From Jatrophihabitans endophyticus (GTDB taxonomy: Bacteria > Actinomycetota > Actinomycetes > Mycobacteriales > Jatrophihabitantaceae): a stretch of 64,000 nt of DNA. A program made the translations under genes and the position numbers. Shown here piece after piece: positions 371-15,712 of the stretch; within the stretch, counting starts at the first letter, position 1; every line of letters begins with the position of its first letter. The notes under the pieces were generated by a model. That model saw only the letters and a list, made by a program, of their open reading frames with translations. It was not told the DNA's origin and searched no databases. The stretch spans positions 496,001 through 560,000 of the forward strand of contig NZ_FQVU01000002.1 in the NCBI RefSeq assembly GCF_900129455.1, written 5' to 3'.

Positions 371-1801
371 ATGACGTTCGCCCTGCACCCGCACCGCAGG
401 ACCGCCGGCCGCGTCGCCGCGCTGGCCCTGTCGGTCCTGACGCTGGCCGCGGGCACGCCGGCCCACGCCGCCAGTCGCCCGACGCTCGATCGCTTCGGCG
501 CCCTGGTCGCGTCGCGGACGAGCACGGCCGCTGCGGTGGCCGATCTCGCCGTGTTGCAGCGGATCGCCCAGCGCGACCACGGCAACCGGGCGACGGGCAC
601 GCGGGGGTACCGCGACTCGCAGGACTTCGCCGTGCGCCGGTTGCGGGCCGCCGGCTACCGCGTGCAGCTGCAGCCCGTGCCGTACACCAAGTTCCACGTG
701 AGCGCCGAGCGCACGCGGCTGCAGCTCGGGGCCCGCACCGTACGACTCACCTCCCTGCTCATGGACGAGTCGCCCGCACGGCGGGTCACGAACGCGCCGC
801 TCGTGGCCCCCGCCGACGGCCCGACGGCCGGCTGCCAGGCCGCCGACTTCGCCGGGCAGGACGTCAGCGGCGCCGTCGTGCTCGAGCCGCGCGCGTCGTG
901 CGGCTACGCCGCCCAGCTCGCGGTCGCGGCGGGCCTCGGTGCCACGGCGGTGCTGCTCTCCTATCCCACGCCGCGGCCGCAGAACGTCCTGCGGCTGCAC
1001 TGGTTCGACAGCACGCCGCCGGCGATCCCGCTCGCCTCCATCCGGCACACCGACGAGACGGCGTTGCGGGCGGCGCTCGCCCGCGGACCGATCCGCGTCG
1101 ACCTCGACTGGCGCGGTCACGACGTCAGCGGCGTCACGCACACCGTGATCGCCGAGACGCGCGGCGGCTCGGCGCATCACGTGGTCATGTTCGGCGGCCA
1201 CCTCGACAGCGTCGACGAGGGGCCGGGCATCAACGACAACGGGTCGGCCGTGGCGGCGGTGCTCGAGACGGCGGTGGCGCTCGCGCCGTTCCAGGACCGG
1301 CTGCGCAACCGGGTGCGCTTCGTCCTCTGGGGCGCCGAGGAGCTCGTCGACGTCGGGTCGGACCACTACGTGGCGCAGCTCGACGCGCAGCAGCGGGCCG
1401 ACATCGACGTCTACGTCAACGCCGAGATGATCGCGTCGGACAACTTCGTCCGCTTCGTCATGGCGGGCGCGGGCATCGTGTCAGCCCCGTTCGAGGCCTA
1501 CTACGCCGCCCGCGACCTGCCGATCGAGCGGGTCGGCTCGGACGCCGTCGGCTCGGACCAGGAGCCGTTCTTCGCGGCCGGCATCCCGATCGCCGGTCTG
1601 TTCGACGGCGCGCTCGGCGTCAAGACGCCGGCACAGGCCGCCGTCTACGGCGGCCGGGCAGGGCAGCTCTACGCCTCGTGCTACCACCAGGCCTGCGACA
1701 CGCTGGCCGCGATCGACCGGCGCGCGCTCGAGCAGAGCACCCACGGCCTCGCCTACGCCGTCGCCACCCTCGCGGGGCAGGCGGCTCCCGGCGCGCGCTG
1801 A
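371..1801 (+). CDS. Secreted M28-family zinc aminopeptidase
   Basis: A 476-residue exported metallopeptidase. An N-terminal signal peptide ends near the AHA-A site (about residue 34). A PA-like insert precedes the M28 domain, whose metal-binding segments are visible: GGHLDSV (about residue 277), GINDNGS (about 290), WGAEE (about 322) and YHQACDT (about 438). In the well-studied Streptomyces griseus enzyme the fourth ligand is Asp in NFDMIGS; here the matching segment reads NAEMIAS, giving Glu. The SDQEPFFAAGIPIAG segment is also family-typical. It probably releases N-terminal residues from peptides outside the cell. It stands alone, with no strong ribosome-binding site. Confidence 0.88.
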   Translation: MTFALHPHRRTAGRVAALALSVLTLAAGTPAHAASRPTLDRFGALVASRTSTAAAVADLAVLQRIAQRDHGNRATGTRGYRDSQDFAVRRLRAAGYRVQLQPVPYTKFHVSAERTRLQLGARTVRLTSLLMDESPARRVTNAPLVAPADGPTAGCQAADFAGQDVSGAVVLEPRASCGYAAQLAVAAGLGATAVLLSYPTPRPQNVLRLHWFDSTPPAIPLASIRHTDETALRAALARGPIRVDLDWRGHDVSGVTHTVIAETRGGSAHHVVMFGGHLDSVDEGPGINDNGSAVAAVLETAVALAPFQDRLRNRVRFVLWGAEELVDVGSDHYVAQLDAQQRADIDVYVNAEMIASDNFVRFVMAGAGIVSAPFEAYYAARDLPIERVGSDAVGSDQEPFFAAGIPIAGLFDGALGVKTPAQAAVYGGRAGQLYASCYHQACDTLAAIDRRALEQSTHGLAYAVATLAGQAAPGAR

Positions 1802-2437: not shown

Positions 2438-2839
2438 ATGAGCGTCGTCGTGGGGTACGTGCCGGATGCAACGGGTCTCTTGGCCGTCAGGCAGGCGGCG
2501 CAGGAGGCGACCTGGCGCGGGACCGACGTCGTCATCGTCAACGTCATCGGGGCGAGCGGCTACACCACGCCGACCGCCGCCGACGAGCAGCACATGGACT
2601 CGGTCGCGGCGCTGCTCGCCGACGGCGGGGTCGCGCACACCGTCCGCACGGTCGGCGCCGAGGAGGGCGTCCGCCCGGCCGAGGCCATCCTGCAGATCGC
2701 CGACGAGGTCTCGGCCGACCTGATCGTCGTCGGCATCAAGCGCCGGTCCGCCGTCGCGAAGGCCGTGCTCGGCAGCACGGCCCAACGCGTGCTGACCGGC
2801 GCGGTCTGCCCCGTGCTCGCCGTCCGCTCCGACGACTGA
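2438..2839 (+). CDS. Universal stress protein (UspA family)
   Basis: A 133-residue single-domain Usp protein of normal family length. It has the N-terminal beta strand SVVVGYVPD and the C-terminal block ADLIVVGIKRRSAV...LGSTAQRVL. The ATP-binding pattern G-2X-G-9X-G(S/T) is partly broken: G99 is present and G112-S113 fit the spacing, but the second Gly is Arg102, so nucleotide binding may be altered. The last strand CPVLAVR is typical. Likely a cytosolic stress protein; nothing in the neighbourhood fixes a more specific role. Confidence 0.85.
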   Translation: MSVVVGYVPDATGLLAVRQAAQEATWRGTDVVIVNVIGASGYTTPTAADEQHMDSVAALLADGGVAHTVRTVGAEEGVRPAEAILQIADEVSADLIVVGIKRRSAVAKAVLGSTAQRVLTGAVCPVLAVRSDD

Positions 2840-2938
2840 CCCGCACCCTCGCTGCCCCGACCTTCGAACGCGACGGGCGCACGTAGCCGCTTGCCGTGTG
2901 CGGCGTGGCCGGGAACTCCGCGCAGCTAGGCTGCCGCC

Positions 2939-3490
2939 ATGCGACGCCACCTCGCGACCCGCGGTTGGCTACCGGTCTTTGCGGCATCGGCCGTCGCAAT
3001 CGGTTGCGTGGCGTGCGCATCGGACGAGCAGACGACCGTCACCGTCCGCAGCAGCAACAGCTACTACGGCGAAGCTTCCTACGACGACGGCGTGACCGAT
3101 ACCCGTGCCGCGATTCCGGCGGTAGACCTGCCCACTGCGTCCGGCGCCAGTCTGACTGTGCACGCCACCGCGGAGGCGCCCCCCACGCCGCGCTTCGCGT
3201 CGCGGTACCTGCGACATGGCAACGGGTCGCGCATCCAGCCGGCGGACCACCACGCAACCATCCGATTTGCCATCTCGAACTGGAACGGCAGCCACTTCTC
3301 CCACAACACCTGGGCGGACCCGGGTGCGACCCCCGTCCGCGTCGGCAGGTCGACACCGACAGACGTGCTCGCACGCGTCTACACCCTCGTTGTCGGCGAC
3401 ATCGTCGAATTCACCGACCGCGCGGGTCCCGAGCTCAGCCGAAGCGGCCCGACCCAGGTCGTGGTGCTGGAGGTCGTGAGCCGCGGTTAG
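2939..3490 (+). CDS. Putative lipoprotein or secreted protein
   Basis: A 183-residue protein of unknown function. The N-terminus has a charged start (MRRHLATRG), a hydrophobic stretch and two possible lipidation cysteines (AIGC, CVAC at about residues 23-26); neither is a textbook lipobox, so lipidation is tentative. The rest is polar, rich in Thr, Ser and Arg. The start is at the ATG where the hydrophobic leader begins. No recognised domain. Confidence 0.5.
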   Translation: MRRHLATRGWLPVFAASAVAIGCVACASDEQTTVTVRSSNSYYGEASYDDGVTDTRAAIPAVDLPTASGASLTVHATAEAPPTPRFASRYLRHGNGSRIQPADHHATIRFAISNWNGSHFSHNTWADPGATPVRVGRSTPTDVLARVYTLVVGDIVEFTDRAGPELSRSGPTQVVVLEVVSRG

Positions 3491-3809
3491 CTGTCAGCCC
3501 ACTCACGGCGCGGCTCCCACACCCCAAGGGCGCCTCGATCACACCGGCACGGGCGCGTTCGGTCGGTCGACGGTCGTGCCACCGACATCCTCCTCGGCAC
3601 TCTGGCGGGGCTCGCAAAGTTGAGCGAGTACCCCTCCGGCCTAACCCACGAAGGCTCGTAGTCGCCAGCCCGTGGTGTCTCCGATGCGAAGCGACGCGGA
3701 CCTAAGCCCAGCAGCTTCCCTTAAGGCGCCCCCTCCCGCCACTGCTACGACTACCGCGAAGCTGCCTGATGGACGATCAGCGCCGAGTGTGTCGCCGGAA
3801 TCTCAGCGG
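3491..3809. other. Intergenic region at left edge of the defence island
   Basis: No supportable gene here. Base composition is a little lower in GC than its surroundings. This is where the core-like genes on the left give way to the jet operon, so it is the likely left boundary of the inserted block. I looked for a copy of the tRNA-Ser 3' end (15621-15650) as an attachment-site repeat and did not see one. Confidence 0.5.
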
Positions 3810-4880
3810 TCAGCAACCGGCCCAGCCGGCACCGGTCAGAGCACGCACCCCGACCGCCTCCTGCGGCATTCGGCATCCCGACGCCAACAGGGCGGCAACC
3901 CGGTCTGCGACATCGGTGCCTGCTTCGTCGGGCCCAGCGAGCCAGCGGGTCAGATCGGCAGCTGCGGCTACCTCGACACTGCGTCCGGCGGTCTGCTCAG
4001 CGCCGCTGTTCAGAAGTTGCCGGTACAGACGCAGCGCCGGCCGGACCGGCGGCAGCTGCTCGAGGTCGGAGATCCGGGCGGCTGCGGCCGGGATACGCAG
4101 CCCGTCGAAGTCGAGGTCACCGAAGTAGCGGACCTCGTCCGCCGCGGGGTGTAGTTCCGGAACTGTCCGGACCGACGCCTCGAAGGCGCCGCCCGCTCCC
4201 CATGCCACCCAGCCGATGCCGAACGGCTCGCGGCGCACGCACTCGAGCAGGGTGGTGAAGGTATCGGAGTTCTCGACGACGAGAAGGACGCCGCCGGGCC
4301 CGGTGTGCACCGCCGGGAGCGGCGGATGAGCGCGGAACGTGCGCAGCAGGGCGAGGGTCAGCCGGTCCGGGCCGAACAGGCCGGTGCCGAGCAATCGGTC
4401 GAGGGTCTTCTCGTGCCCGAAGATCTCCAAGGACCGTTCCCGCAGCGGCACCCGGTCAGTGTCGCGGCTGCGGTCACGCAGCCAGTCATTCACGCACGCC
4501 AGGCGATGCACCTGTGACACGGTCAGGCGGGCGGTCGCCGCCCACGCCAGTTCCGGGCGCCACACTTTCGCCCGGGCCATCGCGGCCGCGGTCGGGGTCG
4601 CGTCCGGCGCCGGGAGCGTCACCTGCCGCGGAAGCCAGGGGCGGGCGGTGCGGTCCTGGGCCTGGGAGGACGACAATAGGCCGGCGGCAGCGAGCGTACG
4701 GAGATCCTCGGCTAGCACCGCCCGCTGCTCTGCGCGGCCGACCGAGGCCGGGTCGGCTTGGGCTGCGAGCCGCCACAGATCTTCTAGGCGCACGGTGCGG
4801 TTCGGCCACTCCTCGAGCGCCGCGGCCAGCCGCGCCTGGCGGCCGGTGAGGGTCCCGGTCTCGGGCACCGCGGCCGTCAC
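3810..4880 (-). CDS. jetD: Wadjet protein JetD (Toprim-type nuclease subunit)
   Basis: A 356-residue protein, last gene of the jet operon; its ATG overlaps the jetC stop by 4 bp, indicating translational coupling. An N-terminal helical, winged-helix-like part (residues 1-170) is followed by a Toprim-like C-terminal part. The acidic motifs are clear: VVENSDTF (about residue 200, the conserved Glu) and YFGDLDFDG (about residue 250, the DxD pair). In Wadjet systems JetD is the topoisomerase VI/Spo11-like subunit that cuts circular plasmid DNA after loop extrusion by JetABC. The assignment rests on these motifs and gene order. Confidence 0.85.
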   Translation of the reverse strand: MTAAVPETGTLTGRQARLAAALEEWPNRTVRLEDLWRLAAQADPASVGRAEQRAVLAEDLRTLAAAGLLSSSQAQDRTARPWLPRQVTLPAPDATPTAAAMARAKVWRPELAWAATARLTVSQVHRLACVNDWLRDRSRDTDRVPLRERSLEIFGHEKTLDRLLGTGLFGPDRLTLALLRTFRAHPPLPAVHTGPGGVLLVVENSDTFTTLLECVRREPFGIGWVAWGAGGAFEASVRTVPELHPAADEVRYFGDLDFDGLRIPAAAARISDLEQLPPVRPALRLYRQLLNSGAEQTAGRSVEVAAAADLTRWLAGPDEAGTDVADRVAALLASGCRMPQEAVGVRALTGAGWAGC

Positions 4881-7800
4881 CGGCCTGCCGGTTTCCGGTC
4901 CGGAGCGCTGCCGCTGGCTGCGCGCGTGCGCAGGTGAACCCGGGCTGCGGTGACGGTGCCGGGCCGGGAACCGGGGGTGTCACCGCCGCCGGCGGGCTCG
5001 TATGGGTCCGGCAGGCGGCGGCGCATCTCGTCGGCAACCTCGATGTATTTCAGCCCGGCCCGCAGGTCGGCGTCGTTCCGCATCCTGATCCACAGCGGGA
5101 ACGAGGCCAGCGCCCGGTCGTCGAATAGGCCGGTCGTGTACACCAGCTGGACGTTGAGGGCGGCGGCGACCATGGTCTGCATGTCGAGCAGGTAGCGGGC
5201 CGACGCCTTCCCGATCGGGTTGTCCAGGAACAGCACGCCGGCGTGCGGTGACCGCAGCCGGCCGCGGTTGTTGGCCTTCAACGCCGCCAGGGTGCAGTAC
5301 AGCAGGATGGCCGCGGTGAGTTCCTGCCCGCCGGAGAAGACGTCGTTCATCTCCTCGACCGGGGCGCGTTCGTCGCGCAGCACTTGGTCCGGTTTCAGGA
5401 CCGTTACCCGGAACCCGTTCGGGACGGCGGCTTTCACGCCGGCCAGCAGCAGGTTGAACCCGTCCCGGCGCGACGACCGCGCGGCCTGCCCGGGGTCCCG
5501 TTCGCGGGCCAGCTTGTCGAGCAGGTCCCCGACGCGGGTGGCGATGGTGGCCGCGTCCGGGTGCGTGTATCGGATCTGCAGGAAGTCCTTCCCGGCCCAG
5601 TCGCCGAGGGTGTCCGGCAGCCGCGACAGCCGCGACGCCTGCCCGACGGTCCTCAGCGCCTGCTCGACCAGCGTGGCCAGCTGCCGGGCGATGATGCCGC
5701 GGTGCCGCAGCGCGTCCTCGAGCTCGCCCTGCAGCGATGTGCGCCGCGCCGTCATCTGGCCGGACCAGTCGACGGCGTTGGCCGCGACGACGTCGCCCGG
5801 CGAGTCCAGCAGCGCCGTCCGCAGCGGGTTGCGCATCTGCTCGTACTTCTCCGAGCGGGTGAACTCGATGAGTTCGTCGTGGGCGCGGCGGGCGGCGTCG
5901 CGGGCCAACTGCTTGGCCAGCGTGGTCTGCTGCAGCTGGTCCCGGGCGGTTTCGGCGGCGGTCTCGGCAGCGGCGGCCACCCCGGCGAACGGCGGCACGT
6001 CTCCGGGCTCGGTACTGGTCGCGTTGCCGCTGGCCTGCAGGACGGCAGCCAGCGGTCGGTACGTCCCGCCGAACGCGGCCGCGCGGCGTTCGGCGTCGAC
6101 GACCCGGACCGTGAGCGTCTCGATGCGGCCGGTCACCTCGTCCAGCGCAGCCTGCGCGGCCCGTTGGACGACGGTCGCGCGGGCGAGCAGCTCGTCGCCT
6201 TGCGCGATCGATGTCGGCCGCCACTCTTGCGCCAGGTTGATCCAGCTGCCGCTCCCGTCACCCGGAGCGGAGTCGGCGTAAGCCGTCCGGGCCTCACCGA
6301 CCCGGACGGCGACCTCCTCCACGCGGCGGGTCAACGCCTGCACCTGCTGCTGCGCGAGTTCGGCCGCACGGGCCCACAGCGACGGGGCGGCGCCGTCCGG
6401 GCCGGCGAGCAATTCTCGCGCGGCCTGCAGATGATCGACGGGCCGCATCGCCAGTTCCCGATGGAGGGACTGGGCCGTCTCGGCGGCCTTGTCCGCGGCA
6501 ATCTTCAGCTCCTCCGCGGGCGCGGCGGCGCGGTAGTTCGCTGCGGCCGCGTCGTAGGCGGCGGTGAGCTCGGCGACCGTCTCGGTGGGCGGTTGGACGT
6601 CCACGGCCCGCGTGGATGTCTCCACGCCGGCCATCGCGTGCCGCAGCCGTGCCGCCTCGTCCCGGCGGCGGCTACGGTCGGCCCGGAGCTGTTCGGCCTC
6701 GGCCAATGCCTGGTCACGCCGAGTTTCGGCGTCCTCGGCCGCGCGGCGGGCCGCGGCGGCGGCGTCGTGGAGGCCGGGCAGGTCGGCTTCGACCTGCTCG
6801 GCGGCCCGGACGGCGTCGGCGAGCATGGCGAGATCCTTGACCCGGTCCGCAGCGGCCCGTTCTCCGTCACGGGCCCGGCCCAGCTGCTCGGTCGCAGTTT
6901 GCCGGTCCTGCTCGGCTTCGGTGACCCGATGGGCGGCGGCGGCGTGCGCGACCTGTGCCGCGTCCGCGACCGCGGTGGTCTCGGCGGCGGTGGCCTGCAG
7001 CGCGGCCAGGTGCCCGGCCGGGTGGTCCGCGCGCCACGCCGCGATCGTAGCGCGAGCGGCGCTGAGTTCCTGGACCTGCCGGGTGGTGCTGGTGATGCTC
7101 TCGCTGCGGGCGGCCATGACGCTCAGGATCTGGTCGCGGCGCTCCGCGGCGGCCTGCTCGTCGTACATGGCGGGGCTGGCCTCGACGACGAACCGGTCAT
7201 CGGCAACGGTGACGAGCTGCAGCAGCGCCGCGCCGCTGCCGATGGTGACGGCTGCGGCCGGCAGCAGCCGTGCCTCAAGCAGCACTTCGCGCGCGGCGGG
7301 CAGCTGGCTGGGGTCGGTGACGACGATCCCGTCGGCGAGGTCGGGGTGGGCGGCGACAAGTTCCGGCCGCTCGCCGGGTGCAGCCGCCCCGGACAGGTAC
7401 CGCCACCCGGAGTGCGCGGCGATCCCGGCCTCGGTCAGCTTGCCCAGGGCCCGCTCGACCTCGCTGCGGGGCGGAAGGAGCCCACCGTCGCCGAGCGCGT
7501 CGAGGACACGCTGGTCGTCGCGCTGGTGGCCGCGCAGCTCGTCGAGCGCGTCGGTGTGCGCGTCCATGTCGTCCTGAAGCGCGGCCGTGATCGCGTCAAC
7601 CCGGTCGTCGAACGCGGTGACCAGCAGCGGCTCGTCGCCGCCGACCGCCTGGTGCACCGCCGGCAGCGCCGCGACGCGCCGCGTGTGTTCCTCGGCTGTG
7701 TGAGCGGCGTCGACTGCGGTGTGGCGACGGGCGACCGCGGCTTGGGCGATGTCCCGCTTCCGTCGTTCCTCGTCCGTGGCGTCCTTCAGCGCGGTGGCGG

Positions 7801-9400
7801 CGTCGGCGTCGGCTCGCTCGCGGTCGGCGAGCTCCAGTTGGGCGGCGTCGTTGACCTCGCCCGCAGCTGCCGCCTCGTCGGGGACGGACCGGGGGGTGGT
7901 GCCGGGGCGGGCCAGGCCGCTCGCGACGGCCGCAGCGACCTTGGCGGCCGCGTCGTCGACCACGCGTTTCATCTGCTTGGCCCGTTCCTCCAGCCGCGAT
8001 GCGGTCTCCAGCGCGCTGCTGCGTTCGCCGTCGGCGTCAGCGGCGTCAGCCGTCCGCGTGGCGGCACGGGTCTCGGCGTCGGTCGCGTCGGTCTGCGCGG
8101 TCGTGGCGGCGGCGTCGAGGCCAGCGAGCAGCCGCGCGGCCGCCTGGTCGCGCCGCCGCAGCGTCGGCGCCGCCTCGGAGTCGGCCGCCTCGAGCAGCTG
8201 TGCGGCCTCCTCGGCGCGAGCCTGCGCCGTGACGCTCTCGGCCAGTTTCGGGACGACGGTCCACCCGGCCGCGACCAGCTGTTGCCGGGCCAGCCGGTCC
8301 CGGACCTCGCCGGCTTCGGCTTCGGTCTGCTGCTGCCGCAGCCGCAGCGTCTGCCGTCGGACCTCGCGGATCACCTGGGTGGCGCGATCGCGTTCGGTGG
8401 TGCGGGGAGCGTGGAACGTCTCCGCTTCGGCGAGCTCGCCCTGCAGGGTCTCCTCGGCGCGGGTCTCCTGGACGTGCCGGGCAGCGAGCGCGGCAGCGAG
8501 CTGCTGGGCGGACGTGCGGGCCGCCGCGGCGCGGGCCGCGGTGTCGGCGTCCTCCTGGTGTGCGCCGGCGAGCACGTCGAGGCCGGCGATCGCGCCGTCG
8601 AGGAAGTCGCGTTCGAGCAGCATGCTGTCGCGCTCGGCCAGGGTGGCCGACCACTTTTCGAAGTTGTCGGCGACCGCGACGGAGTCCTCCGGCTCGGACA
8701 CGATCGTGAGCAGCCACTCGATGAACTCGGCCGAGGACTTGAACGCGAACGCGTTGGCGGCGTCGCCTTCGTCGACGTTCATGCGGCGTTGGATGTCGAA
8801 CAGGTCCGGTTCGAGGCCGAGGCTGCGCAGGTGCGTGACCCACTGCCCCTGGTCCTCGCCGATCCAGGCGACCTGCACCGACGGGTCGGCCTGGCCGATC
8901 TCGCGCACCTCGTCGCGGTAGCCCTCCAGCCGGCGGCGTCGGCCGGTGTCGGCGACCGGGAGGGTGTCGAAGGTGAGCATCCCGTCGGTGGGCCGGAACG
9001 AGTACCAGGCTTCGACGAGCGGGTTGGTGCCGGCGGGGACCCTGTTCCGGCGCTGGAACACCTTGCCGGTGACGACGAGGTCACCGGTGGTGACGTTCAT
9101 CCATTCCAGCGCCACATGCCCGGTGTCGGTGTCGGACACGAACTTGTCCAGTGACGCGCCACCGACGGTGCGGCGTCGGCCGGGCAGAACGACTGAGAAC
9201 AACAGCTTGAGCAGCACGGTTTTGCCGCCGCCGTTCTCGAGCATCAGCAGCGACACCGGCGACGGGCGCCGCAGGATCGGGCCGAGCAGGGTCGCCTGCC
9301 CGACCGGCGCGCCGATGCCGGACAGGTCGAGGGTGACGTCGGCGTACCGGGCGCCGCGGGGACCGATGCCGACGAGCCGGGCACGGTTGATTTCATACAT
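4877..9400 (-). CDS. jetC: Wadjet protein JetC (SMC-like ATPase)
   Basis: A 1507-residue SMC/MukB-like ATPase. The N-terminal head carries a Walker A (LENGGGKTVLLKLL, Lys60). A long Ala/Glu/Arg-rich coiled coil fills about residues 260-1280, interrupted near the middle by a more globular hinge-like stretch. The C-terminal head has the signature FSGGQE (about residue 1353) and Walker B GVLFLDNPIGKAS (about 1390). The usual Walker B acidic pair DE is D-N here. A GAGGAC ribosome-binding site precedes the ATG. JetC drives DNA loop extrusion that senses small circular DNA. It sits 63 bp after jetB and overlaps jetD. Confidence 0.9.
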   Translation of the reverse strand: MYEINRARLVGIGPRGARYADVTLDLSGIGAPVGQATLLGPILRRPSPVSLLMLENGGGKTVLLKLLFSVVLPGRRRTVGGASLDKFVSDTDTGHVALEWMNVTTGDLVVTGKVFQRRNRVPAGTNPLVEAWYSFRPTDGMLTFDTLPVADTGRRRRLEGYRDEVREIGQADPSVQVAWIGEDQGQWVTHLRSLGLEPDLFDIQRRMNVDEGDAANAFAFKSSAEFIEWLLTIVSEPEDSVAVADNFEKWSATLAERDSMLLERDFLDGAIAGLDVLAGAHQEDADTAARAAAARTSAQQLAAALAARHVQETRAEETLQGELAEAETFHAPRTTERDRATQVIREVRRQTLRLRQQQTEAEAGEVRDRLARQQLVAAGWTVVPKLAESVTAQARAEEAAQLLEAADSEAAPTLRRRDQAAARLLAGLDAAATTAQTDATDAETRAATRTADAADADGERSSALETASRLEERAKQMKRVVDDAAAKVAAAVASGLARPGTTPRSVPDEAAAAGEVNDAAQLELADRERADADAATALKDATDEERRKRDIAQAAVARRHTAVDAAHTAEEHTRRVAALPAVHQAVGGDEPLLVTAFDDRVDAITAALQDDMDAHTDALDELRGHQRDDQRVLDALGDGGLLPPRSEVERALGKLTEAGIAAHSGWRYLSGAAAPGERPELVAAHPDLADGIVVTDPSQLPAAREVLLEARLLPAAAVTIGSGAALLQLVTVADDRFVVEASPAMYDEQAAAERRDQILSVMAARSESITSTTRQVQELSAARATIAAWRADHPAGHLAALQATAAETTAVADAAQVAHAAAAHRVTEAEQDRQTATEQLGRARDGERAAADRVKDLAMLADAVRAAEQVEADLPGLHDAAAAARRAAEDAETRRDQALAEAEQLRADRSRRRDEAARLRHAMAGVETSTRAVDVQPPTETVAELTAAYDAAAANYRAAAPAEELKIAADKAAETAQSLHRELAMRPVDHLQAARELLAGPDGAAPSLWARAAELAQQQVQALTRRVEEVAVRVGEARTAYADSAPGDGSGSWINLAQEWRPTSIAQGDELLARATVVQRAAQAALDEVTGRIETLTVRVVDAERRAAAFGGTYRPLAAVLQASGNATSTEPGDVPPFAGVAAAAETAAETARDQLQQTTLAKQLARDAARRAHDELIEFTRSEKYEQMRNPLRTALLDSPGDVVAANAVDWSGQMTARRTSLQGELEDALRHRGIIARQLATLVEQALRTVGQASRLSRLPDTLGDWAGKDFLQIRYTHPDAATIATRVGDLLDKLARERDPGQAARSSRRDGFNLLLAGVKAAVPNGFRVTVLKPDQVLRDERAPVEEMNDVFSGGQELTAAILLYCTLAALKANNRGRLRSPHAGVLFLDNPIGKASARYLLDMQTMVAAALNVQLVYTTGLFDDRALASFPLWIRMRNDADLRAGLKYIEVADEMRRRLPDPYEPAGGGDTPGSRPGTVTAARVHLRTRAASGSAPDRKPAGR

Positions 9401-9463
9401 GCGCTGTCCTCACGGGCGTCGAAGAGGGTACGGCGGACAGGTCGACGGGCTCGAGGTGGTGGC

Positions 9464-10258
9464 TCACAGTTCGGCCACGGCGTCGTCGGTCCAGACGAGG
9501 GTGACGAGCGTGCCGGTGCCGTCGGTGATGGCGGGGACGCCGAGGCGGACCAGATCCCCGAACAGTCGGGCGCCGGCGTCGAGGACCTGCACCCGGTACC
9601 GGGACGTGGTGCGGTAGGTGCCGCCTCGTTCGTCGCCGGCCGGAGCGAGCATGCCGTGGTCGGCCAGGAACGCGAGCGCCTTGCCGACCATGCCAGTGGT
9701 CGAGCTGGCGACGCGGCGCCCGTCGCCGGAGGACGGGCTGGCGGCGCGACGCTGGTAGACCCGCCAGGCAACTTCGAGGTCGGGCTGGTCGGTCGGCGGA
9801 TCGAGCTCCTCGCCGTCCGCGGCGGCCAGTTCGGCGAGGCGGCGGGCTGCCTCTCGGACGAACGCGTCGACGCCGTTGACGGTGATCCGGCCGACGTAGG
9901 CGGGGTTGGCAAGGTCGGCTGGGCGCGGGTACGCCATCGCGGCCGCGCCGAGGTGGGCCAGGGCGTGCAGCACCCGCTCGGCGGCGCGGCCTTCGCTGGC
10001 CGTCCGGCGGGCGTAGTCGCCCATCCGGACAGCGAACGGGGAGTCCTCCGTCGCGGCGGCGACAAGGCCGTGGCTGTCGTCGACGTCGAGCACGATGAGG
10101 TCCATCCCGAACGCGACGGACGTGACGGCGTCGGCGAACGTCGCGTCGCCGCGGTAGCGGCGCACGAGGGCGGCGTACTCGGCGTCGCGGGCGGGGCGCA
10201 CCTTGGGGCGCAGCCCGAAGGCGATCAGCCGTGCCGCGTCGCGGGTGTCGGTGCTCAT
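9464..10258 (-). CDS. jetB: Wadjet protein JetB (KITE-like subunit)
   Basis: A 264-residue protein matching the position and size of JetB (DUF4194-type, winged-helix KITE/MukE-like subunit). I choose the ATG at 10258, one base after the jetA stop codon (TGA-G-ATG), with AGGAAAGGA just upstream inside jetA; an upstream in-frame start at 10294 would add a poor N-terminus. Segments rich in aromatic and charged residues (AEYAALVRRYRGD, VAFGMDLIVLDVDD) are compatible with a winged helix. It would bridge JetA to the JetC head. Assignment depends mainly on operon context. Confidence 0.78.
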   Translation of the reverse strand: MSTDTRDAARLIAFGLRPKVRPARDAEYAALVRRYRGDATFADAVTSVAFGMDLIVLDVDDSHGLVAAATEDSPFAVRMGDYARRTASEGRAAERVLHALAHLGAAAMAYPRPADLANPAYVGRITVNGVDAFVREAARRLAELAAADGEELDPPTDQPDLEVAWRVYQRRAASPSSGDGRRVASSTTGMVGKALAFLADHGMLAPAGDERGGTYRTTSRYRVQVLDAGARLFGDLVRLGVPAITDGTGTLVTLVWTDDAVAEL

Positions 10259-10259
10259 C

Positions 10260-11804
10260 TCAGCCGGTCCTTTCCTGCACGTCGTCGTCGTCACGGGGTT
10301 CGGCGCTGGGGTCGGTGTCGGGGGTGTGGGCGGCGGGGAGGAGCCCGGCGCGGGCGACGAGCAGGTCCGACCCGACGAAGTCCGGGTCGTTGAGCGGAGT
10401 GCCGTCGTCGACGGCGACCATTACGTGCCGTTCCTGGTTGTTGCGGGCGGCGCCGATCTCCTGCGCGGCTAGGGCGAGGACCCTCACCACGGTCAGCAGC
10501 GGCAGGTCGACCACGTCCTCGGCCCTTTCCTGGGTGTCGCGGGCTTGCTCGAGCAGTCCGGACAGCCGCTGCGGTGCGTCCGGGTCGAGAGCGAGCAGCC
10601 GGTCGAGCGCGGCGTAGGTCGCCTCGTTGAACCGTTCCGGTTCGGTGATCTCCTCCAGCTCCGGTTCGGTGATCTCCTCGCCAAGCATGTCCCGTTCCAC
10701 TGGTGGCGTGGTGAGCCCGTCGTAGAGGTCGATGAGGCGAGGCGCGAGGGGTACGTCTAAGCCGACGGAGGCGCGGAAGTAGCCGTCGAGGGCGGCGGAC
10801 GCCGCCTGGACGGGCAGCCGCAGCGTCGGGACCAGGAGTTGGCCGTGCAGATCCAGGGCGACGGCCGCGGCCGGATTGATAGTGAACGTCTGCCGGTCCT
10901 GTTCGGCCCGGAACCGGCCGCGGGCGTCCTGGAGGCCTCGTTGCAACTGGGCGTGGCGGCGCAGGCATTCCCGCACCAGTTCGACCAGGCGGGCCGCTTG
11001 CTCCTTGCGTTGTTCGGTGTCCGCGGTGTCGCGGGTCTCGGTGATGCTCAGCAGGATCGCCGACTCGGTACGGGTGCGTTCCTCGATGTGTCCGAGCGCG
11101 TCGGAGAGGAACTTCGGCATCTCCTCCACCCAATCGACGTTGCGAACGTCGCGGGTGGTCGCGTCCAGATGCAGCCGCAGCATTTCGCCGTACCGGATGG
11201 TCTGATAGCGGGCGGCCTGCGCGGCCGCCTGGGCCTCGGACAGCTTCCCGCGCCGGATCAGGACCTCCAAGCGCAGGTCCGCGGCGATCTGTGCGGACTC
11301 GATGTCGACGTCGAGCGCACCGACGAGCACGTTTACCGCCTCGTTGGACGCGCGCAGGTACAGCTCGCCGTCGGCGCCGTACGTCTCCTCGAGGAGCTTG
11401 AAGTCGAAGTGCCGGCGGGAGTATCCGCCCGGGCCGGTGACGCCGTACACGGCCCGGAATCCGCGGTCGGCGTTGCCGGCGTTGAGAAGGTTGTCCAGCA
11501 CCCAGGCGGCGACCTCCGCGTGCTCGTCGGCGGGCCGGTCCGGTGCCTGTTCGGCGGCGGCCGCGATTACCCCGGACAGGACATGGTCTGGCCGGGCGCC
11601 GCGGTCGAAGTCCATGGCGAGGGTGACGAGGTCGATTGCACTCAACGCCAGTTCGGACATCTGGTAGATCGTCCAGTCGCCGGTTTTCGCGCTCTTGCGG
11701 GCATCGAGGTCGTGCAGGGGCACGGTCGTCGCCAGCGCCTTGATCCGCAGCGCGAAGCCCGCGTCGGTCGTCGCTACGAACTCCTGCCCGGGCATGACGA
11801 TCAC
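10260..11804 (-). CDS. jetA: Wadjet protein JetA (kleisin-like subunit)
   Basis: A 514-residue protein, first gene of the jetABCD operon. It is largely helical with coiled-coil-like stretches in the middle (residues 220-290) and an acidic tail. By order and size it fills the JetA (MukF/kleisin-like) place. The start is either GTG at 11804 or ATG at 11795; no strong ribosome-binding site separates them and the message may be leaderless. A 7-bp inverted repeat (11816-11834) lies directly upstream. Without jetB, C and D beside it I would not have named it. Confidence 0.75.
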   Translation of the reverse strand: MIVMPGQEFVATTDAGFALRIKALATTVPLHDLDARKSAKTGDWTIYQMSELALSAIDLVTLAMDFDRGARPDHVLSGVIAAAAEQAPDRPADEHAEVAAWVLDNLLNAGNADRGFRAVYGVTGPGGYSRRHFDFKLLEETYGADGELYLRASNEAVNVLVGALDVDIESAQIAADLRLEVLIRRGKLSEAQAAAQAARYQTIRYGEMLRLHLDATTRDVRNVDWVEEMPKFLSDALGHIEERTRTESAILLSITETRDTADTEQRKEQAARLVELVRECLRRHAQLQRGLQDARGRFRAEQDRQTFTINPAAAVALDLHGQLLVPTLRLPVQAASAALDGYFRASVGLDVPLAPRLIDLYDGLTTPPVERDMLGEEITEPELEEITEPERFNEATYAALDRLLALDPDAPQRLSGLLEQARDTQERAEDVVDLPLLTVVRVLALAAQEIGAARNNQERHVMVAVDDGTPLNDPDFVGSDLLVARAGLLPAAHTPDTDPSAEPRDDDDVQERTG

Positions 11805-11834: not shown

Positions 11835-11984
11835 ATGGCGCAAAGGTTTCGTCCGCGTGGGGTGCCAGTGACCGATGTGAGTGGCGCGGTTGGAAAGGCG
11901 CGGCCCGGATCGCCCGCATTCACGTGCAGCGCCTCCTTCGCTCGTGCGCAGCGAGCGACCGGCTGAAGAGCAACTGCTCACCAA

Positions 11985-12674
11985 TCAGGTGAGCAAGCGG
12001 CGGAGGTACAGCTCCATGACGTGATCGTTGCCGACCATCTGCTGTGCAGCGGCGAGGTCGTAGCTCAGCGTCAACCCCGCCGCGCCCATCGGGACCGCAC
12101 CCGGGCGTGGTTTGCCGGGGAGGGGCACTGGGATACCGAAGTAGGCGCCCACTGTGACGACAAGAAGGCGCGCCGTCGATCCGTTGATGTTGACGAATGG
12201 GTGAATACGAACCCATTCGCCGTGCACCCAGGCGAGGAGGGCTACGACGTCATCGAACAGTTCCTCAGGCATAGGGGGCGCCGAGTGACGACGCGTACCG
12301 AGTCCGGATACGCGTCGTGCGAGCTCGGCGAAAAAGCTCCGCACCTGCGATGGGACTTGGCCCGGCGGCGTGCCGGGGACGTTGTTGACGTGGACGGGGC
12401 AGGCGGCTAAGCGGCCGGCTGGCGGTCCTTCGCCGCGGAAGTGACCGGCCACGAACGGGTCGATCAGGCGTACTCCGGCGACCGCCTTCTTGTGCCAGCG
12501 GCGGAGGTCCTCCTCGGTGACGAGCTGACCGCCTCGCCCGAGCTTCGCGGCTTGCTCACGAACGCCGACGAGCTGGTCGGCGATGCGGGCTTCGTTGACG
12601 GGTGTGTCCGCCCACGGCCAGGGGCGGGAGGTCGCTCGACGAGGCGGCCGGTTCCTACGGGGCTTCGGGGGCAA
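11985..12674 (-). CDS. Fic-domain protein with degenerate active-site motif
   Basis: A 229-residue Fic/DOC-type protein. The core motif region reads HPFVNINGSTAR (about residues 160-171), against the consensus HPFx(D/E)GNG(R/K)xxR. The His, Pro, Phe, the second Asn-Gly and the last Arg are kept, but the metal-binding acidic residue is Asn, the first Gly is Ile and the first Arg is Ser. Classical Fic enzymes transfer AMP or another phosphate-linked group to proteins; here the activity may be changed or lost. TTG at 12674 is the likely start and lies 20 bp inside the preceding gene. Third gene of a three-gene operon next to jetABCD. Confidence 0.8.
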   Translation of the reverse strand: MPPKPRRNRPPRRATSRPWPWADTPVNEARIADQLVGVREQAAKLGRGGQLVTEEDLRRWHKKAVAGVRLIDPFVAGHFRGEGPPAGRLAACPVHVNNVPGTPPGQVPSQVRSFFAELARRVSGLGTRRHSAPPMPEELFDDVVALLAWVHGEWVRIHPFVNINGSTARLLVVTVGAYFGIPVPLPGKPRPGAVPMGAAGLTLSYDLAAAQQMVGNDHVMELYLRRLLT

Positions 12675-13332
12675 GAGACCGCCCGGGCCAATTTACCTCG
12701 CGGTGCAACTGCTCGGGCTCGTCTTCGCGCCAGGCTTGCGCTGCGCTCTCCCAGTCAGCGTCGGTGAAGGTCCGCCGAGGGGCGGGCTTTGCTCGGCGGA
12801 GCCAGGCGTACCCGTCCCGCTCCACGGCTGTGACGTAGGCGTCGCCGGTGCCACGAGCGTCTCGCCGGGTGCTGTCTTGAAGCCAAGCCCGCACTGTTTG
12901 GTCGCCGTACTGCGCGACAAGCAATCCGATGATGGCGTGGAGCCGAAGCAGCAGACCGGCTTTGTTGGGCTTGACCTCGGCGGTCGGCACGTTGCGCCAG
13001 TACGCCAGGGACGACTCGGCAAGACCCACGCTTGCGACGACATCTGCCTTGGTGGCGAGAAGCCACCGGCTTAGATCACGCGCCGCGATCGCAGCGGGGT
13101 GCTCGCGGGCGGTTGGCGCACTTCGCTGCCCTTGCTCACGCAGCACGATCGTTACGTGGTGGAGCAGCAGCTCCCACGAGGAGATCGGCGTGACGGCCTC
13201 ATGGCGAATCCCAGTGGGCGTGATTCCCCAGTCCGAGAGATCTGCCGAGACGGGCGTGCTCAATTCTTCCGGCGGCAGCCCGGTCGCGTCGACCGGCAGC
13301 CGTGGCATTCGCAAAGTGCGCATCGTTGTCAT
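12655..13332 (-). CDS. Helix-turn-helix, antitoxin-like protein
   Basis: A 225-residue protein. The middle (residues 95-130, SRWLLATKADVVASVGL...SLAYWRN) looks like a helix-turn-helix that reads as a DNA-binding segment, and the part after it (LLLRLHAIIGLLVAQYG...VRAWLQD) resembles the C-terminal half of Xre/MbcA/ParS-type antitoxins. The ATG at 13332 is chosen because GGAGG precedes it by 10 bases. It overlaps the TIGR04255-like gene by ATGA and the fic gene by 20 bp. Most likely it regulates the operon and neutralises or partners the Fic protein; this is inference from context. Confidence 0.6.
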   Translation of the reverse strand: MTTMRTLRMPRLPVDATGLPPEELSTPVSADLSDWGITPTGIRHEAVTPISSWELLLHHVTIVLREQGQRSAPTAREHPAAIAARDLSRWLLATKADVVASVGLAESSLAYWRNVPTAEVKPNKAGLLLRLHAIIGLLVAQYGDQTVRAWLQDSTRRDARGTGDAYVTAVERDGYAWLRRAKPAPRRTFTDADWESAAQAWREDEPEQLHREVNWPGRSLAPEAP

Positions 13333-14117
13333 GGTGACTTCGCCTCCCCCCGCAAGTAGCCGAGCATGGACTCTGAAACAAGGTGCTGGAACAGCGACAC
13401 GCTGACATCGTTCAGCTGCGAGATCAATTCGGGGAGCTGCGTGCTCGCCCAAAGGGTCGACGTCTCGGTGTAGGTGTCGATGTCCAGCAGGAAGCGGCGT
13501 TGTCCATCACCGTCGTGGACAGGTCCCGATCGCACCGATGATCGGATCTGGTCGTCGATCTCAAGGAGCATCCGCTGCTCGAAGGCGAGGACTCCATCAC
13601 GAAGTGTGTCGTCGCTAAGTGGGGCCGCCAAGACTGCGTTGAGCCGCTGCTGCCAGTTCTCGTCCGAACCGTCGGTTTCTGGCGCCGGAAGCAGGTTGAT
13701 GAAGCGCAGACCGACCCGCGTGACGAGCGTTGGGGCGGCTTGCGCTGTGACTGCGTCCAGTGCGGTAAGTACCCGCGGCAGCATGTCGTCGAAGCCGGTG
13801 AACTGCGGCGTCTCCAGGGAGACGGAATCGGGCAGCAGACTGAGGTGCCAGGCGTCGTCCTCGCTGGTCAGCCGCCATCCGCGCCGTTCGGTCGGCCCGG
13901 CAGGAAGAGGCCCGTTGAGGCTGACCAGAAGTTCCTGTGCTGAAAGCTGCGCGACCTGCGGATACGGGTGACCGCTGACTGCGAGTTGGTCTTGGAGCCC
14001 ACCAAGCAGCTCACCCGGCACAGCGTCGCGTTGCGCGTCGAACCGCACCTGTGTCGCGACCAGCGAGAGCGCGGCGTTCGGCAGCGGGCGACGATCAGGG
14101 GACGACAACTTCAACAT
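13329..14117 (-). CDS. TIGR04255-like protein, first gene of Fic operon
   Basis: A 262-residue protein. The opening (SSPDRRPLPNAALSLVATQVRFD) and the pattern of a central beta-rich part ending in a C-terminal helix that contains TSTLWASTQLPEL...LFQHLVSE match the sporadically distributed TIGR04255 family, whose function is unknown. ATG at 14117 has GGAGGGG four bases upstream. The reading frame stays open upstream into a dead helicase fragment (14238-14717), but that part is not homologous and the ribosome-binding site fixes the start. It is coupled by ATGA to the antitoxin-like gene. Confidence 0.7.
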   Translation of the reverse strand: MLKLSSPDRRPLPNAALSLVATQVRFDAQRDAVPGELLGGLQDQLAVSGHPYPQVAQLSAQELLVSLNGPLPAGPTERRGWRLTSEDDAWHLSLLPDSVSLETPQFTGFDDMLPRVLTALDAVTAQAAPTLVTRVGLRFINLLPAPETDGSDENWQQRLNAVLAAPLSDDTLRDGVLAFEQRMLLEIDDQIRSSVRSGPVHDGDGQRRFLLDIDTYTETSTLWASTQLPELISQLNDVSVSLFQHLVSESMLGYLRGEAKSP

Positions 14118-14237
14118 GACCCCTCCATCGACCTTACTGTAGGCCAACTGTAGCCAGCGAGAGATGTGATTCTTCACGATCACGCCGAGCCGACAGCTGT
14201 GATGCTGGTCGGGCGAGCACTCGGTCGGGCCTGCGCT

Positions 14238-14717
14238 GCCACCGGCCTTGATCGTCGTGCCCAGCCCCACATCGTCCGCGATCAGCAGCGCCACGCGCGG
14301 CATGTGCAGGGCCTCTGCGACAGGTTCGAGCTGGTAGTCCTAGATCTGGATGCCGGCCCGGAACGGCGCCTGCGACGTCGCGACGTCCGCTGACGCGACG
14401 GTGCCCCACCGGACAGCGTCGATCAGCGCGCCGAGATGCTGCGGAGCGTTCCACTGATCCGGGCCGGGGACGTCGGGAAGCGCCCCTGCCGGAACGATGG
14501 CACGGCCCGGCTCGCCCTCCCACGCAACCTCGAGCTCCTCGCCGAGGTCGTCCTCGGACACGGAGGTCAGACGGATGAGCGTGCGGCCAGGGACAACGCT
14601 CGCCGCGAGCTCGTCGGCCGGGAGGCTTGATAAGTTCAGGTCTGACACGACCCACTGCTGCCCGCGCACGCGCACGCGCTGACCGCCCTCAAGCGCGTCG
14701 GGGGTAAGGGTCTCGAC
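14238..14717 (-). pseudogene. Remnant of SNF2-type helicase (DrmD-like)
   Basis: Translating the minus strand gives the N-terminus of a large SNF2/HepA-type helicase similar to DrmD of class 1 DISARM: RVRVRGQQWVVSDL, a stretch ending QAPFRAGIQI, then after an in-frame TAG (14340-14342) DYQLEPVAEALHMPRVALL, IADDVGLGTTIKAG. The Walker A-like motif (normally DVGLGKTIEAG) has Lys changed to Thr. Homology stops just after it, with the rest of the gene deleted and the TIGR04255-like operon following. Both the nonsense codon and the loss of the body show it is dead. The 5' end also lacks a start codon. Confidence 0.7.
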
Positions 14718-15070
14718 TCGAGATCCTAAGTCACGGCCGTGGTGTTGAAGATCAGCAACACCACGGACTGCGCGTAGCTTGCGCGGTACCTAGGCCACAG
14801 AGGCAACGTCTTCATCCCGGTCGACAAGCGGCGCGATCCCTTCGTACAACGCTCTAAGCCAAAGAGTCGCTCGTCGCCAGGCCCGACGAAGTCCAGAACG
14901 GCCCTCGCTCTCGCGGATGCCACTTCGGCGGTGCGCTGCACGTCGTCGTCACCCACGGCGTGCGCGTCTTCATCGCCGCGGAGGCAGCGATGTCGGCCCT
15001 AGCCTGGGCGACGTTGTTCTGCCAGTGCTCGAGACGGGAGACCGAATTACGGCGCCTGGACGCCGTGCAG
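14718..15070. other. Junction region without a gene
   Basis: About 350 bp between the helicase remnant and the transposase remnant. It contains a strong hairpin (14737-14766) and otherwise no reading frame I can support; short open frames here have no recognisable content. It probably includes degraded insertion-sequence DNA. Confidence 0.45.
14737..14766. terminator. Hairpin, 11-bp stem
   Basis: CCGTGGTGTTG and CAACACCACGG pair perfectly around an 8-base loop. There is no T-run on either side. It could be a factor-independent terminator of the actinobacterial kind or part of a mobile-element end, since it lies at the junction between two remnants. Confidence 0.45.
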
Positions 15071-15571
15071 AAGAACTCACGCCTGAACCACCCCACCACC
15101 TGCGGCAAGGTCGAACGCGTCCAACAGACGATGAAGAACTGGCTGCGAGCACAACCTGGCCAGCCGACCACCATCGACGAGCTGCAGTCACTGCTGGACA
15201 CCTTCGTCGAGCTCTACAACCATCACCGGCCACACCGAGCCCTGCCTCAGCGCGCAACGCCGGCCGCGATCTACCACTCGCTCCCCAAAGCCACCCCAAC
15301 ACCCGGCGCCCGCACCAGCGACACCCACCACCGCGTCCGCCGCGACACCATCGACGACTCCGGCGTCGTCACCCTGCGCGTCCACGGCCGCCTGCACCAC
15401 ATCGGCATCGGCCGAACCCACGCCCGAACCCACGTCATCCTGCTCATCGCCGACCTCGACGTCCGCATCGTCGACGCCGCCACCGGCGAACTCCTACGCG
15501 AGCTCACCATCGACCCCAGCCGCGACTATCAACCCACCGGCAAGACCAGAAAATCAAGAAACAACAGCTGA
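15071..15571 (+). pseudogene. IS481-family transposase, C-terminal remnant
   Basis: The last 166 codons of an IS481-type DDE transposase. Recognisable parts are HPTTCGKVERVQQTMKNWL, which carries the catalytic Glu, LYNHHRPHRAL, then the C-terminal block NGRLHHIG-like (HGRLHHIGIGRTHARTHV), LLIADLDVRIVDAATGELL and the end RDYQPTGK. The catalytic Asp residues and the HTH are missing, so the copy cannot transpose. The open frame extends upstream to 14960, but that part has no transposase content. Confidence 0.85.
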
Positions 15572-15620: not shown

Positions 15621-15712
15621 TGGCGGAGGGCGTGGGATTCGAACCCACGATGACGCTTCCGCGCCATAGCGGTTTTCAAGACCGCCGCACTAGGCCACTA
15701 TGCGAGCCCTCC
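15621..15712 (-). tRNA. tRNA-Ser(TGA)
   Basis: A 92-base type II tRNA on the minus strand. It begins GGAGGGCTCGC and ends CCCTCCGCCA, so CCA is encoded. The anticodon loop CTTGAAA holds TGA; a long variable arm (ATGGCGCGGAAGCGTCAT region) and the T-loop GGTTCGAATCC are present. Its 3' end faces the defence island on the left, a common arrangement for islands integrated at tRNA genes. Confidence 0.96.

Follow-up and report, generated by a model that had tools for sequence, protein, structure and literature searches.

A conserved gene trio encoding TIGR04255, helix-turn-helix and motif-variant Fic proteins in Jatrophihabitans endophyticus, and its relatives with a different third gene

The window analyzed here is a stretch of 64,000 nucleotides of the Jatrophihabitans endophyticus genome (contig NZ_FQVU01000002.1), and the element under study is an operon of three genes on its minus strand, encoding a TIGR04255 family protein (gene 1), a helix-turn-helix (HTH) protein (gene 2), and a Fic-domain protein (gene 3). 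The coordinates of these genes and of the surrounding features are collected in Table 1. As the preliminary description of this DNA had read, the genes overlap within positions 11985-14117: genes 1 and 2 share ATGA, and genes 2 and 3 share 20 nt. The assignment of gene 1 to TIGR04255 was borne out by the NCBIfam model. Overlapping genes preceded by operator-like repeats are the organization of type II toxin-antitoxin operons, and the trio has both. Among the known defense systems of PADLOC-DB 2.0.0, genes 1 and 2 matched 0 families, in agreement with the earlier view that the unit does not correspond to a known system.

Table 1. Features of the trio and of its neighborhood in the window
Feature	Position	Strand	Basis or remark
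Gene 1, TIGR04255 family protein, 262 aa	13329..14117	-	NCBIfam 104.8 bits vs cut-off 30
Gene 2, HTH protein, 225 aa, putative DNA-binding antitoxin/autorepressor	12655..13332	-	HTH-family hidden Markov model, 2.8e-6
Gene 2, HTH and MbcA-like region, residues 78-153	12874..13101	-	hhalign range
Gene 3, Fic-domain protein, 229 aa, TTG start	11985..12674	-	PF02661 34.9 bits vs cut-off 24
Changed Fic motif HPFVNINGSTAR, residues 158-169 of gene 3	12168..12203	-	Read from translation
Operator-like direct repeat CTACAGT-N4-CTACAGT, 11-nt period	14136..14153	-	19-36 nt upstream of gene 1
Terminator-like stem at gene 3 end, 8-9 bp, weak T tail	11974..11996	-	Weak
Type III Wadjet operon, downstream of trio	3810-11804	-	PADLOC match for JetA, JetC, JetD
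JetB	9464-10294	-	By position only, no PADLOC match
DISARM DrmD N-terminal fragment, upstream of trio	14340-14675	-	~110 aa vs 1021-aa model
IS481-like transposase fragment	14960-15571	+	
tRNA-Ser(TGA), adjoining the IS481-like fragment	15621-15712	-	
Second tRNA-Ser	1072-1162		

The trio recurs outside its own genome. The search with the Fic protein (P0003) in 101 genomes, the relatives and the own genome, gave matches at E <= 0.001 in seven of them, and the only full-length match outside the own genome, with 51% identity, was found in G006, which belongs to another genus of the same family. There the three genes stand in identical order, the overlap of genes 1 and 2 is 4 nt, that of genes 2 and 3 is 47 nt when the first ATG is taken as the Fic start, and the Fic motif reads HPFVNLNGSTAR. 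Protein identity between the two loci is 57-58% for gene 1, 43% for gene 2, and 51% for gene 3. The fractions of differences at codon positions 1, 2, and 3 are 0.31, 0.25, and 0.59 for TIGR04255, 0.41, 0.30, and 0.63 for HTH, and 0.35, 0.33, and 0.56 for Fic, an excess at the third position, as expected of coding genes under constraint. This bias, together with the recurrence of the trio, is more than chance. Furthermore, the Fic motif sits in the best-conserved 30 columns of the Fic alignment (26 identical) vs 51% overall. Since the trio recurs with the same order and a changed motif, the odd motif is maintained rather than decaying; judging from the sequences, the trio and its motif are kept in two genomes, and the trio is a real, conserved unit. 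The preliminary description had proposed to look for the same genes elsewhere and had named homologs with the same neighbors and an intact Fic motif as the result that would speak against it; the search returned one further trio with the changed motif, and none with an intact motif was seen among the genomes and loci searched.

In general, the Fic form is rare, being present in two genomes within everything searched. A profile of the two Fic sequences matched 10 of 397 genomes of the order (very strongly in the own genome and G006, at 3.7e-23 in G560, and at 2e-6 to 9e-4 in the other seven) and 8 of 306 genomes of the phylum (the own genome and seven others at 6e-5 to 1e-3). The two-row HTH profile matched 2 of 394 genomes of the class, the own one and G105, whose match was judged from its open reading frames (ORFs) to be chance and discarded. 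In the genome_contigs collection, from which records near the window's genome were possibly left out, the scan for the Fic-type trio gave 68 pattern stretches and 0 relatives, and a degenerate nucleotide pattern encoding HPFxN(hydrophobic)NG gave 23 stretches and no further Fic-type trio. The protein motif was carried by 19 of these 23, and by eye only one looked like a real Fic: L042 of the Bacteriovoracaceae, where a 916-codon open frame has the odd Fic-like motif HPFENFNGRTIR at 1263-1297 of the minus strand, with the Arg kept. No relatives were found in the scans of viral_contigs, and plasmid searches with the Fic or HTH protein gave no match.

The PF02661 search of the window's genome returned gene 3 as its single match. 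Its motif differs from the catalytic HxFx(D/E)GN(G/K)R at three defining positions, the same ones already pointed out in the preliminary description: the acidic residue is replaced by Asn, the first Gly by Ile, and the first Arg by Ser, while His158, Asn164, Gly165, and the last Arg, Arg169, are retained. The nearest Fic outside the trio, in G560, is 32% identical and has the motif HPFANGNGRTAR; the hidden Markov model (HMM) of the window and G006 TIGR04255 proteins had no match in the 10 kb around it, and the same HMM missed some distant true members. In six other genomes with weaker Fic matches, and in the Fic of a Sphingomonas plasmid, the motif reads HPFx-D-GNGR. On this comparison, Asn in place of Asp/Glu is common to the trio and G560, and the changes of Gly to Ile/Leu and of Arg to Ser mark the trio; Asn at the acidic position, considered as a special trait, was rejected on the G560 motif. 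Against the PADLOC Fic models, gene 3 scored 3.6e-7 (PDC-S04) and 0.01 (SoFic) over about 40 residues around the motif, and the G560 protein scored better (3.2e-9 and 2.6e-6).

TIGR04255 genes were present in 31 of 397 genomes of the order, 31 of 396 of the phylum, and 8 plasmid records. We compared 68 TIGR04255 loci, comprising 61 of the 62 new places of the two genome searches, five plasmids, G006, and the window; G961:C108 (147 bases) fell under the cut-off and was left out, and three more plasmids were added later. In many loci the next gene encodes an HTH protein, often with a 4-nt overlap, and after it comes a gene whose product carries VVSQTCDI or a similar motif. The HTH family was found in 33 of the 68 loci, and their third slot holds a Cys-containing family recognized by HMM in 27, a possible remote SHDC form of it, seen by eye, in two, Fic in two (the window and G006), another protein in one (G990c), and a gene cut by the contig end in one (G329). 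In the tree described below, third-slot labels were assigned by hand: the Cys type was called by motif or HMM, and for the HPC and SHDC forms the initial call was made by eye. The HMM recognizes each of the seven HPC forms as Cys family, and neither of the two SHDC forms (G951 and G873). In five further loci, a Cys gene follows a short gene outside this HTH family. From these sequences, the related loci differ from the trio in their third gene, usually a member of this Cys-containing family, a point beyond the reach of the preliminary description.

Of 1318 ORFs downstream on the same strand, 23 contained the Cys motif, vs none of 2500 lying upstream or antisense, a count made in the same loci from which the motif was composed. 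Iterated HMMs placed the Cys family in 32 of the 68 loci, and reversed sequences gave no match. The Cys was present in 33 of 33 aligned proteins and a Gly in 94%, most sequences having been chosen by a Cys-containing motif; an unbiased test is given by the 11 sequences found by HMM alone: two of these are fragments of split genes, and the Cys is present in all nine that remain (9/9). The invariant residues in an 11-row alignment of the Cys proteins are Q, G, Q, C, D, D, R, and R. No Pfam family matched any of six Cys proteins (QGD...QTCDI); NCBIfam returned a single weak hit for them, well under its cut-off, and PADLOC likewise a single weak one (E 0.038). A further Cys protein was weakly hit by a PADLOC type I specificity model (E 0.0029), and the best match of the family profile in PDB reached only E 1.6. 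Profiles of the Fic and Cys proteins showed no relationship (hhalign 1.5%). Phage searches with TIGR04255 or a Cys protein gave no match, and a full-text search of the PMC open-access literature, to the exclusion of subscription papers and preprints, returned no relevant paper on TIGR04255 and nothing relevant on MbcA with ParS, Fic, or toxin.

The near-invariant-Cys protein, typically as third gene, is found among others at L108, L109, L111, L112, L173-L175, and L089-L104. At L089 (plus strand), a TIGR04255-HTH-Cys operon of the HPCAMR form is followed directly by what we take, by eye, to be a TIR-like protein and preceded by a presumed DUF4062-like one (2576-3667 and 6191-6973). Other third genes after TIGR04255 include a HEPN-like one in G996 and a HicA-like one in G776, both at 14.3 bits and under the Pfam cut-off; the HEPN-like partner is listed at L155 and the HicA-like one at L151. 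The counterpart in G805, considered as HEPN, was rejected, its weak match being LAG1. At L105-L107 and others, the partner of TIGR04255 is, by eye, a GGxxxEWHxGG-like protein with a small gene.

The membership of gene 2 in the HTH family is reproducible. Iterative HMMs started from the window, G006, and G623, or from seven other Cys-type loci, converged on the same 34 sequences, which became 33 loci once G913 was dropped as misplaced. An HMM of the 31 other HTH partners, with the window and G006 left out, detects both omitted proteins (8.8e-10 for G006, 2.8e-6 for the window), and hhalign of gene 2 against the family gave 96.5%, with three mismatched pairs at 0.1-3.1%. The 18-row family profile (A8, gene 2 included) matches the antitoxin MbcA Rv1990c (6fkg) at 3.6e-7 and the Xre/MbcA/ParS antitoxin 8qnl at 9.5e-5, in both cases over the HTH and the following part, which supports the antitoxin-like C-terminus proposed in the preliminary description. 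This part of the proposal stood at the level of the family, and gene 2 alone matches no curated model: its antitoxin-like nature, and the kinship of its family to MbcA, are visible only in the family profile.

The repeat CTACAGT-N4-CTACAGT accounts for two of the three occurrences of CTACAGT on both strands of the window. G006 has the same repeat at the same place; the repeat and the ribosome-binding site are shared in otherwise diverged DNA, and we read the shared repeat as a candidate operator. In the Cys-type loci, a comparable position is taken by other words: TGTGAAG occurs twice with period 12 in G956, G081b, G673, G728, and Kocuria, a related repeat is found in G499 and Paenarthrobacter, and the reverse complement of TGTGAAG, with period 11, in Sphingomonas; G278 and G625 have GGTGCAT twice at period 11. 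Exact 7-mer repeats with a period of 10-13 precede 17 of 32 HTH loci (1.6 expected by shuffling), one of the 33 having too little upstream DNA. With the period restricted to 11-12, a range narrowed after the data were seen, the count is 17 of 32 HTH loci vs 4 of 35 others (Fisher p 0.0004), or 15 of 30 vs 4 of 35 with three near-copies collapsed (p 0.0009).

Seven of the eight TIGR04255 plasmid records have the HTH and Cys genes; they are from Sphingomonas, Chroococcidiopsis, Kocuria, Sinorhizobium, Rhizobium etli (two), and Paenarthrobacter, and therefore the arrangement spans Actinomycetota, Pseudomonadota, and Cyanobacteriota. The search with the Chroococcidiopsis Cys protein matched six plasmid records, all six beside TIGR04255, and the plasmid search with the G278 TIGR04255 protein gave no match. 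The plasmid of Rhizobium sp. CB3060 (L110) has TIGR04255 with other partners, beside a multiubiquitin/ThiF/DUF6527 cluster, and on the Sphingomonas plasmid (L108, 6603-7736, plus strand) a canonical Fic (HPFEDGNGR) lies about 530 bp after the TIGR04255-HTH-Cys operon. In the unrooted TIGR04255 tree of 67 rows, from which G961 was left out as too short, the Fic pair (100/100) falls within a 97/95 clade of 10 rows whose other eight are Cys-type, and Cys-type rows are also found outside this clade. Since the Fic pair nests inside a supported Cys-type clade, most likely Fic replaced the Cys gene; this is the simplest reading, its direction being taken from the tree. Partner exchange around a constant antitoxin domain, Fic/Doc toxins included, is described for Panacea in the relevant part of PMC8832971, and the main text of a later network paper names neither Xre nor MbcA (PMC10440598).

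As regards the neighborhood, the preliminary description had placed the trio beside a Wadjet operon and a dead helicase fragment; the former was recognized as type III, and the latter as an N-terminal fragment of DISARM DrmD. JetA contains two perfect 20-nt copies at 10636-10679. No att-like repeat was recognized at the tRNA-Ser genes among the 20 largest of 26 repeat families. The trio has a GC content at third codon positions (GC3) of 0.76-0.78 and a codon adaptation index (CAI, with six window genes as reference) of 0.32-0.38, vs GC3 0.84-0.92 and CAI 0.48-0.66 in JetA-D; three flank genes have GC3 0.96-0.98 and CAI 0.73-0.84, a comparison that is circular, all three being in the CAI reference. 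Upstream of the G006 trio there are, by eye, transposase-like genes and a tyrosine-recombinase-like gene. PADLOC hits among 109 neighbor proteins of the HTH-type loci and G006 were scattered and had no control, and were not used as evidence for defense.

We lean, if only somewhat, toward reading the trio as a mobile module of toxin-antitoxin-like type, three genes long and autoregulated, in which the effector has been exchanged. The evidence suggests that genes 1 and 2 are a regulatory pair able to exchange its effector. Gene 2, of the MbcA/Xre antitoxin kind, would probably repress the operon at the CTACAGT repeat and restrain the third protein, and gene 1 would be its constant partner, probably acting as a sensor or as an additional restraint. 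The effector would occupy the third slot, as the Cys protein in the relatives and the Fic protein here. Once the restraint by genes 1 and 2 lifts, Fic would probably act on a host or invader protein, in a manner likened to abortive infection. It is not expected to be an efficient AMPylator, because the metal-binding acid, the first Gly, and the first Arg are replaced while His, Asn, the second Gly, and the last Arg are kept; its phospho-transfer may be weak or altered, or it may bind its target tightly. A bolder version, which we hold to be doubtful, sees TIGR04255 and the MbcA-like HTH as a sensor/antitoxin chassis, carried by plasmids and chromosomes in at least three phyla, with exchangeable effectors, mostly of the new Cys-centered family, and the N-[IL]-N-G-S Fic as performing a phospho-transfer other than AMPylation.

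Several observations weigh against the module that we favor. The Fic form is known from only one further genome, of the same family. Gene 2 alone has no Pfam family above cut-off (one match is far below) and nothing in NCBIfam or PADLOC at E <= 0.1, and the two-row gene 2 profile finds in PDB only an insignificant RhlR match (E 0.94). AlphaFold2 on single sequences gave a mean pLDDT of 43.7 for P0002 and 33.8 for P0003. The inhibitory-helix motif [S/T]xxxE[G/N] of class I-III Fic regulation is absent from all three proteins in the window and G006, so the classic antitoxin block of Fic is not visible. In the TIGR04255 tree, support of 82/70 does not settle the exact sister of the Fic pair. Repeats with a period of 10-13 also precede 11 of 35 loci without HTH (1.8 expected), an excess due in part to shared ancestry, since five of the 11 share GTCCTAG.

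Among the alternatives, the one to which we give appreciable weight, though less than even, is that the Fic protein is not an enzyme but a conserved binding module that sequesters a target, or a structural partner or inhibitor in a TIGR04255/HTH complex. Three positions of the motif that bind Mg or phosphate are replaced together in both copies, and BepC offers a precedent: the part of PMC7842960 concerned describes its non-canonical Fic domain as conserved, able to act without catalysis, and functional with four active-site residues changed. Motif-variant Fic/Doc clades are likewise discussed as possibly inactive or differently active in a section of Khater and Mohanty (PMC4454073). A scaffold, however, need not keep His158, Asn164, Gly165, and Arg169, which are retained in the most conserved stretch of the protein. 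Human FICD bears on both sides: according to the passages of PMC9994480 on this residue, Arg371, at the first-Arg position, touches the beta-phosphate, and the R371S change abolishes detectable deAMPylation and lowers AMPylation, of which a weak activity is nevertheless retained. We consider rather unlikely that the operon serves regulation or metabolism and has no toxin or defense role, a unit in which gene 2 regulates and gene 3 modifies a cellular protein. In its favor, 13 of the 68 TIGR04255 genes, all of one genus, have neither HTH nor Cys partner, and by eye 11 of these share the same conserved gene surroundings, so membership in a mobile module is not obligatory for TIGR04255. Conversely, loci of the HTH type are scattered and lie on plasmids in three phyla, the Pfam family seen most often in the 109 neighbor proteins is phage integrase (5/109, no control set), and the codon usage of the trio is atypical.

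An accessory role of the trio in the neighboring Wadjet III system is very unlikely. The trio lies on the same strand, 180 bp upstream of JetA, but by eye no JetC-sized gene is found in the 12 kb around the only other known trio, that of G006. The codon usage differs as well, and a terminator-like stem separates trio and JetA, one that we rate as weak because one site was found in 3.1 kb where shuffling gives 1.2. On the G006 neighborhood and the codon usage, Wadjet looks incidental, the functional tie to it suggested in the preliminary description found no support, and the trio was probably acquired separately. Still less credible is a decaying Fic remnant placed by chance beside the TIGR04255/HTH pair. 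The changed catalytic motif and the fragmentary state of the neighboring DrmD and IS481-like genes would fit such a remnant, and it is contradicted by G006, with the same order, overlaps, and motif at 51% identity, and by the codon-position bias.

If the toxin-antitoxin-like module is right, the TIGR04255 family would gain a place as its constant part, and an effector family with no Pfam match (the Cys protein) would be introduced. The natural swap of effectors could serve to probe what the constant pair senses and restrains, and the Fic variant to probe how far a Fic active site can change under selection.

With the TIGR04255-HTH-Cys operons described above, the trio shares TIGR04255 and the HTH family, and it differs from them in having Fic, not the Cys protein, in the third slot. 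The likeness to MbcTA and other RES-Xre modules lies in the alignment of the antitoxin HTH and the following part (MbcA Rv1990c, 6fkg; 8qnl) with the HTH family, and in an antitoxin-like gene placed before an effector gene. The trio differs by its extra leading TIGR04255 gene and by an N-terminal extension in gene 2. The toxins of MbcA-type antitoxins are RES proteins; here no RES-domain partner was found, the third protein being Fic in the trio and, in the related loci, a Cys protein for which the six tested gave no Pfam family. The FicTA and Phd-Doc modules likewise combine a Fic effector with a DNA-binding partner gene, and the trio departs from them in its N-[IL]-N-G-S motif, in the lack of [S/T]xxxE[G/N], and in having three genes; 22 cases of Fic/Doc beside xre genes are listed in the pertinent section of PMC2701414. 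The PADLOC candidates PDC-S04 and SoFic share a Fic domain with the trio by a weak match, limited to about 40 residues, in which the G560 relative scores better and genes 1 and 2 have no counterpart. BepC resembles the trio in its conserved non-canonical Fic motif; as described in the part of PMC7842960 on the motif, the change is only at the acidic residue (to Lys), in a secreted effector, whereas the trio Fic is changed at three positions and encoded in an operon with an HTH gene. Panacea (DUF4065), as presented in the passages of PMC8832971 on its partners, also has a constant antitoxin side and exchangeable effectors, Fic/Doc included; the trio would have another antitoxin family and a second constant component, TIGR04255.

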